This document shows, in pieces, positions 2,035 through 18,406 of a stretch of 64,000 bases of DNA. The stretch is taken from NCBI GenBank assembly GCA_025361335.1, contig JANYAK010000038.1, positions 1 through 64,000 of the forward strand. The letters run 5' to 3'. Positions within the stretch are counted from its first letter, which is position 1. Every line of letters begins with the position of its first letter. The notes beneath the pieces are model-generated. The model was given only the letters and a program-made list of their open reading frames with translations. It did not search any database and was not told the DNA's origin. The translations under genes and the position numbers were made by a program. This DNA comes from Coriobacteriia bacterium (GTDB lineage Bacteria > Actinomycetota > Coriobacteriia > Anaerosomatales > PALSA-660).

Positions 2035-2131
2035 TGGCGGAGGCGCGTGCGAATCGAACACACCCAGGAGGCTCTTCACCCCCCACGACGGTTTTGAAGA
2101 CCGCGGAGCCCACCAGGACCCATTCGCCTCC
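2035..2131 (-). tRNA. selC: Selenocysteine tRNA (UCA anticodon)
   Basis: The minus strand reads GGAGGCGA...GCGCCTCC-G-CCA, a 97-base tRNA including an encoded CCA, close to the length of E. coli selC. The anticodon loop CTTCAAA (UCA at 2097-2095) is closed by GCGGT/ACCGT. A long variable arm rich in G followed by CCTCC and the T-arm GTGTG-TTCGATT-CGCAC are visible. The eighth acceptor pair appears as A-G. It reads UGA as selenocysteine with SelA, SelB and SelD, whose genes lie at 6.8-11.6 kb. It was found by its anticodon loop and arms, not by a scanning program. Confidence 0.93.
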
Positions 2132-15338: not shown

Positions 15339-16504
15339 CCCGGTTCACCTCCTCGCCTGTAGGCGTCCCACAGTGTCCAGAACAGGTTCTGGCGCTTCGT
15401 GTCGTAGTAGGCCGCGCGGCGGACTTCCCAGTCGGCTTCCGCGTGCCGGCCTTCGGTCAGCAGGGTGGCCGCCAGCCCGAAGCGCGCGCGAACGCACGCG
15501 GGGTCGAGCGCGACCGCCGTGCGATACGACTTCATCGCCTCGGTGAACCGCTGAAGGCCCATGAGCGATTCGGCGAGAAGGACGTGCGGCATGGGGTGCG
15601 CGGGCACGGACACCGCCAGGGCCGACAAGACGCGCGCGGCGTGACCGCCGAGCCCGGGATGCTTGGCGTACGCGACACCGAGCACGTAGACGGCCGCGAT
15701 GCAGTCCTTCGAGAGCGTCAGCGCGCGCAGCGCCACGGCCATGGCCTCGTTCACGGCCTCCTGCTTGAGATACATGTAGCCGGCGAGCGCCAGGGCGTCG
15801 GGGTCGGCCGGGTCCGACTCCAGGACAGCACTGAGGAGGTCCTGCGCGCCGAAGTAGTCCTCGGCGCGAGCCAGCACCCCGGCGGCCTCGAGAAGGGCGC
15901 CCCGCTCGTCGGGGACGGCGTCCGGATCCGGCAGCACATCGGGCACGGGGCCGATCCCCGCGATGGCGAAGAAGAGGTCGTCCTGGCTCGGGTCGAGTTC
16001 GCCGGCCTTGCGGAACGTGGGCAGGGCCGTGGGGACACCTTCCCGCTTGAGGGCCGCCACCGCCATGTTGTACATGGCGCGCGGATGCTTCGGGTCGATC
16101 GCGAGAGCGGCCTTCCATGCGTCGACCGCCTCTTCGTCGAACGAGGCGGCCGCGAATGCCTCTCCGAGTTGGACGCGGGCCGTGACCAGGTCCTCCGCGA
16201 CCTCGGCCAGCTCATGCCAGACCAGGATCGACTGGTCCCACATCCCCCCGCGCCGATCGTACGCCAAGCCGAGGTCGAGGTACGCGGGCGCGCAATCCGG
16301 ATCCAACTCGATGGCTTTGGTGGCCGCGGCCGCCGCCTCGTCGTAGAAGTCGCCGGCCAACATCAGCTCGGCGAGCAACGCGTGGACGCCGGGCTGTGCG
16401 GGATCCTCGCCGAGTGCCGCGTAGCACGCCGCTACCGCCGGCCCGACCTGACCCCTGCGCGCGAGGGTCTCCGCCAGGATCGCGTCGTGGGAGCCCGCGC
16501 GCAT
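15335..16504 (-). CDS. TPR-repeat protein
   Basis: 389 residues from ATG 16504, overlapping the TGA of the corrinoid-protein gene; the longer ORF start at 17011 runs through that gene in another frame. At least eight tetratricopeptide-type helical pairs are visible, for example EDPAQPGVHALLAELMLAGDF, AIELDPDCAPAYLDLGLAYD and ALAIDPKHPRAMYNMAVAAL. There is no signal peptide, membrane segment or catalytic motif. It is probably a cytoplasmic scaffold linking its two coupled neighbours, which is inference from operon structure. Confidence 0.85.
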   Translation of the reverse strand: MRAGSHDAILAETLARRGQVGPAVAACYAALGEDPAQPGVHALLAELMLAGDFYDEAAAAATKAIELDPDCAPAYLDLGLAYDRRGGMWDQSILVWHELAEVAEDLVTARVQLGEAFAAASFDEEAVDAWKAALAIDPKHPRAMYNMAVAALKREGVPTALPTFRKAGELDPSQDDLFFAIAGIGPVPDVLPDPDAVPDERGALLEAAGVLARAEDYFGAQDLLSAVLESDPADPDALALAGYMYLKQEAVNEAMAVALRALTLSKDCIAAVYVLGVAYAKHPGLGGHAARVLSALAVSVPAHPMPHVLLAESLMGLQRFTEAMKSYRTAVALDPACVRARFGLAATLLTEGRHAEADWEVRRAAYYDTKRQNLFWTLWDAYRRGGEPG

Positions 16505-17169
16505 CACGTCGGCCCGCCGGCCGACGTGAGCCGATCCGCGGCGACCTTCGCGACGAGGTGCACCGCGCTCTCCGCGCCGCGCAGCACGCCATTGGCTCCC
16601 GCCTGCTTCGCTATGCGCACGTCGGCCTGAAACGGTCCTCCGGAGACGAGCAGCACGACGTCGTCTCGTCCCGCACCGCCGAGCATGTCTCGCACCCGCC
16701 CGACCGAGCGCGCGGTCTGCAGTATCTCGGCGCACACGATGACGATCTTGGCGCCGGTCTCGTCCACCTTCTCCAAGAAATCGGCGGGGCGGACATCGAC
16801 CCCGAGATCGATGACGCGATCGCCGGCGCCTCTCAGCGCCGCGACGATGATGTTCTTCATCACGGCATGGCGGTCCTTGTGCATGCACCCGATGATGACC
16901 GTCACGCCTGTGTCGAGCACGGCGGACGGTGGGGTCACGAACGAGGTGATCTGCTCGGCGACCACCGCGGCCTGGGTGAATGCGATCTCGTCGACGTCGT
17001 CGCACGCCCACGCGGCGCCGAGGAAGGCTAGGGCGGGCGCGAACAGTGCATCGAAGATCTGGTCCTGTGTCGTCCCGGTAGCCCGGACACCCTCGACCAC
17101 TTTGATGGCGCTCGCGGGGTCCTGGTGGACGAAGGCCTGATAAAGGCGCAGAGGTGCGTCGTCACTCAT
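16504..17169 (-). CDS. Cobalamin-binding (MtaC/MetH-like) corrinoid protein
   Basis: 221 residues. Residues 1-85 look like the helical cap domain of corrinoid proteins (FDALFAPALAFLGAAWACDDVDEI). Residues 86-215 match the B12-binding Rossmann domain: GCMHKDRHAVMKNI holds the lower-ligand Asp99-x-His101, although Gly of DxHxxG is Met104; LVSGGPF and AGANGVLRGAESAV fit the later strands. Family members carry methyl groups or sense B12. No methyltransferase is adjacent; instead it is coupled to a TPR protein and a glycosidase-like protein. Confidence 0.85.
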   Translation of the reverse strand: MSDDAPLRLYQAFVHQDPASAIKVVEGVRATGTTQDQIFDALFAPALAFLGAAWACDDVDEIAFTQAAVVAEQITSFVTPPSAVLDTGVTVIIGCMHKDRHAVMKNIIVAALRGAGDRVIDLGVDVRPADFLEKVDETGAKIVIVCAEILQTARSVGRVRDMLGGAGRDDVVLLVSGGPFQADVRIAKQAGANGVLRGAESAVHLVAKVAADRLTSAGGPT

Positions 17170-17359: not shown

Positions 17360-17436
17360 TGGTGGCCCCCCTGGGATTCGAACCCAGACTGGCCCGGGTT
17401 TAAGCCGGTTCCCTCTGCCGATTGGGGTAGGGGGCC
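17360..17436 (-). tRNA. tRNA with UAA anticodon and short variable loop (tRNA-Leu by anticodon, class I shape)
   Basis: The minus strand gives acceptor GGCCCCC/GGGGGCC with discriminator A and encoded CCA, T-arm CTGGG-TTCGAAT-CCCAG, and anticodon arm CCGG-CTTAAAC-CCGG with UAA at 17402-17400. Total length is 77 bases with CCA. The variable region is only five bases (CCAGT), whereas bacterial tRNA-Leu is normally class II with a long variable arm. The D-stem CCCC/AGGG has one mismatch. UUA codons are used in the window (one in the cytochrome gene), so a UUA reader is needed. Amino-acid identity is therefore open. Confidence 0.8.
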
Positions 17437-17467: not shown

Positions 17468-18406
17468 TCAGGTGCTCTCGAGCACGAGCCCATAGAGGAT
17501 ATCGTGCTCGCTGACTGTAGACGAATCGAGACCCGCCAGCGCCAGGATCGTCTCCAGGATGATGGCGCCGGCGACGATCACCTCGGCGCGCGCCGGGTCC
17601 ATCCCGACGACGTGGCGCCTCTCGGCCAGGGGTAGCGCGGCGAGCTCCTCGCGCAAGTCCGCGATGTCGCCCCCTGAGAGCCGAGAGCCGTGCACTTTGG
17701 CGGCATCGTACACGTCGAGCCCCTGCCTGACCGCGGAGAGCGTCGTGCCGGTGCCGGCGAGCGTCACCAGAGTCCGCGGACGGCCGGTCAACCCCGCGAA
17801 GAAGGGACGCATCTCGTCGGCCACCCAGGCGGAGGCCGCATCCATCTCCTCCGGCTTCGGCGGGTCGGTGTGCAGGAACATGTCGAGGACCCGCCGCGAG
17901 CCGACGTCTATCGATCGGGCCGCGCCGATCTCGACGTCGCGCCCATCTTCAGTGTCATGAGCACAGCCGAAGACGAGTTCTGTCGACCCTCCTCCGAGAT
18001 CGGCCACCAGCACGTCGTCGTCGTCGATGGAGTTCGTCGCGCCCCGGAACGACAGGTCCGCCTCCTCCTCACCGGAGATGATGCGCGGCCGCACGCCCGT
18101 TTTCTCGATCAGGTCGAGGAATTCGTTACCGTTGCACGCGTCGCGCGCCGCCGACGTGGCGACGGCGACCACCCGGGCCGCGCCGGTCTCCTCGATGTCG
18201 CGCATGAACCCCGAGACCGCATCCGCGACTCGGCCGATCGCCACATCCGAGAGTCGGCCGCTGCCGTGCAGTCCTTCGCCGAGATGCGTCACGGCCGTCC
18301 GGCGGACCACCTCACAGACATCGCGGCCCGACACGTCGGCGATCAGAAGACGCGTCGTGACCGTCCCGATGTCGATGGCGGCCGTGCGGTTGGCGACGCG
18401 ATCCAT
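17468..18406 (-). CDS. ppx: Ppx/GppA-family exopolyphosphatase / pppGpp phosphohydrolase
   Basis: 312 residues. The actin-like ATPase fold is shown by the phosphate-1 loop AAIDIGTVTTRLLIADV, the segment VATSAARDA, the catalytic-region GEEEADLSFRGA and phosphate-2 VADLGGGSTEL. It is the short, two-domain form common in Actinobacteria and hydrolyses polyphosphate and/or pppGpp. It follows the DUF501 gene in the conserved actinobacterial order eno-divIC-DUF501-ppx. Confidence 0.93.
   Translation of the reverse strand: MDRVANRTAAIDIGTVTTRLLIADVSGRDVCEVVRRTAVTHLGEGLHGSGRLSDVAIGRVADAVSGFMRDIEETGAARVVAVATSAARDACNGNEFLDLIEKTGVRPRIISGEEEADLSFRGATNSIDDDDVLVADLGGGSTELVFGCAHDTEDGRDVEIGAARSIDVGSRRVLDMFLHTDPPKPEEMDAASAWVADEMRPFFAGLTGRPRTLVTLAGTGTTLSAVRQGLDVYDAAKVHGSRLSGGDIADLREELAALPLAERRHVVGMDPARAEVIVAGAIILETILALAGLDSSTVSEHDILYGLVLEST

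Follow-up and report, generated by a model that had tools for sequence, protein, structure and literature searches.

The window, the whole 64,000-nucleotide stretch analysed here, carries a short-arm tRNA gene that is almost certainly the functional UUA-reading leucine tRNA of its genome (G000, 92% complete). It is best understood as the positional counterpart of the long-arm form of related genomes, probably charged by an ordinary LeuRS. We propose that the long variable arm of tRNA-Leu(UAA) would have been reduced to five bases, and that leucine is most likely still attached by the ordinary bacterial LeuRS, which would recognise A73 and the corner between D-loop and T-loop (A14, A15-U48, G18G19, A20a) and not the arm. 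The expressed tRNA would then decode UUA and probably, by wobble, UUG. The reading as an ordinary short-arm tRNA-Leu(UAA) draws together the leucine marks of the gene, the meaning of UUA as leucine, more than 100 further cases and the independence of LeuRS from the arm.

The gene and its fold

ARAGORN, the RF00005 model and the sequence itself confirm the starting point of the original prediction: a complete tRNA with an encoded CCA, a UAA anticodon and a variable loop of five bases (Table 1), short of the 10 or more nucleotides by which class II tRNAs are recognised. ARAGORN calls the gene tRNA-Leu(taa). RF00005 aligns it over model positions 1-71 as a complete cloverleaf, and its 48.1 bits lie above the gathering score, which is 29. 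This is the lowest score among the 33 G000 tRNAs over the cut-off, the others reaching 52-76 bits, and a run of the model over the whole window with default filters missed the gene. The acceptor stem is GGCCCCC/GGGGGCC, the anticodon loop CUUAAAC and the T-arm CUGGG/UUCGAAU/CCCAG. Two stem pairs, A27.G43 and C10.A25, are imperfect; at the first of these, the sister genus g3 shows G27-C43. A plain fold gives z = -0.86, a measure that is uninformative for tRNAs. Elsewhere in the window there is a tRNA-Sec gene, so the organism probably makes selenoproteins.

Table 1. Features of the window discussed in the text
Feature	Position	Strand	Evidence
Class I (short variable loop) tRNA-Leu(UAA) gene, including CCA	17360..17436	-	ARAGORN; RF00005; family conservation
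Anticodon UAA	17400..17402	-	ARAGORN anticodon position 35; sequence
Variable loop CCAGU, 5 nt, final base U48 pairing with A15	17388..17392	-	sequence
D-loop A14 A15 U16 C17 G18 G19 C20 A20a G20b A21, leucine-type	17414..17423	-	
Discriminator A73, major leucine determinant	17363	-	A73 in 116/116 distinct class I sequences; PMC9976931
ppx-family (exopolyphosphatase/GppA-like) gene, directly upstream of the tRNA	17468..18406	-	TIGR03706 1.8e-57, below curated cut-off
Corrinoid-binding (MtgC/MtbC-like) protein gene	16504..17169	-	
tRNA-Sec gene	2035..2131	-	RF01852 68.3 bits

Leucine identity and the meaning of UUA

According to reviewed work on E. coli, leucine identity resides in A73, A15-U48, G18G19, A20a and the contacts between D-loop and T-loop (PMC9976931). 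Neither the long arm nor the anticodon is a determinant there, and variants without the arm are reported to be still charged (PMC9976931), which leaves without support the premise of the original prediction that LeuRS recognises its tRNA through the long arm. The window tRNA carries the E. coli set in full, with A73, A14, A15-U48, G18G19 and A20a all in place. Within G000, only the three class II tRNA-Leu and the window gene unite A15-U48, C20-A20a-G20b and A73, and the window tRNA shows the distinctive identity set of no other G000 tRNA, in a comparison that left out two tRNA-Gly that could not be parsed. A73 is present without exception in 116 distinct class I tRNA-Leu(UAA) sequences, of which 112 have A15-U48. 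Seven genomes, five with the class I and two with the class II form, each encode a single LeuRS of bacterial type that scores above the curated cut-off of TIGR00396. The class I tRNA-Leu(UAA) agrees with the finding in E. coli that LeuRS needs no long arm.

The proteins themselves point to the same amino acid. We masked UUA and aligned the proteins to their counterparts in G018, a relative whose tRNA-Leu(UAA) has the long arm, after removing shadow reading frames (a first pass without this step was noisier). Leucine was the residue opposite UUA at 6 of the 8 sites of G000, at 68 of the 103 of G069 and at 71 of the 137 of G072, comparable to CUC, CUG and CUU, which faced leucine at 51-76%. The residues next in frequency were chiefly Val, Ile, Ala, Met and Phe, which commonly replace leucine, and in the two large samples (G069 and G072) no residue other than leucine exceeded 13%. 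The gene combines a leucine anticodon, UAA, with a codon that proteome alignments read as leucine. Because UUA is very rare in G000 (0.11 per 1000 aligned codons, compared with 2.9 per 1000 codons in G069 and 12.6 in G072), there are just eight direct sites, and the weight of this result comes from the relatives. Codon pairs between the window and G001 include only four with UUA (three to GTC, one to GAG), too few to be read and left unchecked. UUA is likewise near-absent in high-GC Streptomyces, where this codon and bldA are regulatory.

Distribution and the ppx locus

In 100 related genomes, comparison at the DNA level found the tRNA at 92-99% identity in seven other genomes of the family (f1), which rules out chance resemblance, and gave more distant matches in other Coriobacteriia families. 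All eight f1 genomes have the short-arm gene. When 250 genomes of the class were scanned by pattern, the form turned up, as a conserved tRNA-Leu, in 21 genomes of five families (f1, f6, f17, f20 and f21), across which the T-arm, D-loop, anticodon loop and CCA are kept. Such conservation among relatives is an outcome that the original prediction had itself named as speaking against it. One further match, in G144, was unlike tRNA-Leu(UAA) and was set aside.

The same pattern with long-arm spacing found no long-arm tRNA-Leu(UAA) in any of the 21 short-form genomes; its matches in G069, G072 and G074 resemble unrelated sequence or tRNA-Met. Most surveyed relatives without the short form have the long one (19 genomes), and ARAGORN confirmed the calls for the long-arm genes fetched from them. 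Three genomes, G008, G076 and G096, show neither form by these patterns. Since the pattern found the long form in none of the genomes with the short one, the short tRNA-Leu(UAA) is no spare copy. In G000, the window gene is the only UAA tRNA found; the remaining leucine tRNAs (UAG, GAG and CAG) are class II, and class II leucine tRNAs are present throughout the relatives. The sequence missing from the 92%-complete G000 might hold a long-arm copy, but the seven other family members also lack one. As a separate observation, tRNA-Leu(CAA) was not found in G000 or G001, both members of the genus, while G002-G007 carry one; in the first two, the UAA tRNA may read UUG, or the tRNA-Leu(CAA) gene may sit in missing sequence.

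The two forms also share a location. The long-arm tRNA-Leu(UAA) of sister families lies, like the window gene, just downstream of ppx, and the short form adjoins ppx in f6, f17, f20, several Propionibacteriaceae and other Actinomycetota. The f6 short-arm gene and the long-arm genes of sister families have a common acceptor stem, GGCGGTG/CACCGCT, and the short-arm genes of f17, f20 and f21 resemble the long-arm genes of f18 and f22 at the ppx locus. A Ppx tree labelled by tRNA class requires four changes, two of them forced by well supported branches; its named rows were chosen via their class I tRNA, so that it gives no estimate of class frequency. Taken together, the common locus, the resemblance of the genes and the Ppx tree indicate that short and long forms are positional counterparts and that there was more than one switch between them. 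Probably there have been several such switches at the ppx locus, in Coriobacteriia and the wider Actinomycetota, with leucine identity retained throughout, and the short form most likely arose from the long one by loss of the arm in place. What is mildly new is that Coriobacteriia appear to have switched tRNA class more than once at one conserved locus. The corrinoid-binding protein gene also adjoins the tRNA and is adjacent to it in many families of the order.

More widely, the class I UAA pattern matched at least 118 stretches of species genomes, and ARAGORN called tRNA-Leu(taa) in 111 of the 118 matches listed. Most of those listed are from Actinomycetota (Microbacterium, Nocardioides, Mycolicibacterium, Corynebacterium, Pseudonocardia and Propionibacteriaceae); Planctomycetota, Myxococcales and Cyanobacteria are among the other sources. 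In the complete genomes of Pseudonocardia dioxanivorans and Leucobacter coleopterorum, for example, the pattern finds a single UAA tRNA, of class I. A survey of the phylum found class I spacing in at least 29 genomes of 12 families, with an ARAGORN check on part of them. The original prediction had considered a highly atypical tRNA-Leu; the tRNA-Leu stands, while atypical holds only against the textbook view that every bacterial tRNA-Leu is class II, the form being common in Actinomycetota. Short-arm UAA tRNAs of L095 (Victivallaceae), L168 (Elusimicrobia), L101, L175 and L181 have D-arms unlike those of the main class I group, which suggests further independent arm losses in other phyla. In G252, the genome of Mycolicibacterium parafortuitum (L155), three UAA matches with class I spacing lie within about 15 kb and are possibly a mobile tRNA cluster.

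Alternative readings and known counterparts

The short variable loop combined with the anticodon of a class II family might indicate a tRNA that accepts some amino acid besides leucine in its place and so reassigns UUA, as the original prediction had also considered. We regard this as extremely improbable. UUA faces leucine at rates like those of other leucine codons, no other residue stands out in G069 or G072, and the gene carries the full leucine identity set and no other set distinctive in G000. Moreover, the same form occurs across many cultured Actinomycetota, which are not known to depart from the standard code. Equally improbable is the inactive copy that the original prediction had listed, a decayed pseudogene beside another tRNA for UUA, even if the imperfect pairs in two stems and an RF00005 score that is the lowest in the genome (still over the cut-off) would fit such decay. 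No second, class II tRNA-Leu(UAA) was found in G000, the short gene is the sole form in all 21 genomes that have it, its key parts are conserved across families, and the sister genus has a regular G-C pair at the site of the A27.G43 mismatch. Conservation and the status of only UAA tRNA found thus dispose of the inactive copy, just as the alignments and the identity set dispose of reassignment.

Another alternative concerns origin and leaves function unchanged: a class I gene from outside, for example from a phage, might have replaced the native class II gene. Similar class I genes, annotated as tRNA-Leu and called tRNA-Leu(taa), do occur in Mycobacterium, Pseudomonas and Vibrio phages, and the class I D-stem differs from that of class II. 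Against this, class I and class II genes occupy the same ppx locus, and the f6 class I gene has the acceptor stem of sister-family class II genes. A Ppx protein search of viral contigs gave no match. We consider replacement possible but rather unlikely, and retain the short-arm gene as a counterpart of the long-arm one, most likely derived in place.

In much of Actinomycetota, mycobacteria included, UUA is read by a class I tRNA-Leu. Annotators should therefore not mark such a gene as a pseudogene, an isotype conflict or a change of code. Where neighbouring families carry one form or the other at the same locus, they offer natural pairs for studying how arm loss affects charging and modification, and repeated switching at ppx, if true, would amount to a natural experiment on changes of tRNA class, undescribed in the literature searched. 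We found no explicit description of a class I tRNA-Leu(UAA) in bacteria in the open-access papers searched.

Among known leucine tRNAs, the bacterial class II tRNA-Leu(UAA), represented by Streptomyces bldA and the Coriobacteriia genes L073-L091, has the anticodon, A73, A14 and G18G19 in common with the window tRNA, and the Coriobacteriia long-arm copies add the ppx locus and a similar T-arm; the window tRNA differs in its 5-nt variable loop in place of the long arm and in an altered D-stem. Human mitochondrial tRNA-Leu(UUR) also reads UUR codons without a long arm and is recognised through A73 and A14 (PMC9976931), but it is organellar, is served by another LeuRS and has a weak anticodon stem, and no homology is claimed. 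The nearest published form in the open-access papers searched is the tRNA-Leu(TAG) with a short variable loop in Mycobacterium tRNA clusters (PMC6582537). It shares with the window tRNA a leucine anticodon, the short variable loop and its occurrence in Actinomycetota, but has another anticodon and accompanies a normal long-arm isoacceptor as an additional copy. The class I tRNA-Leu(UAA) found elsewhere in Actinomycetota, in other phyla and in phages has the same 5-nt variable loop, leucine-type D-loop and A73, differs from the window tRNA only by sequence divergence and is of the same kind.
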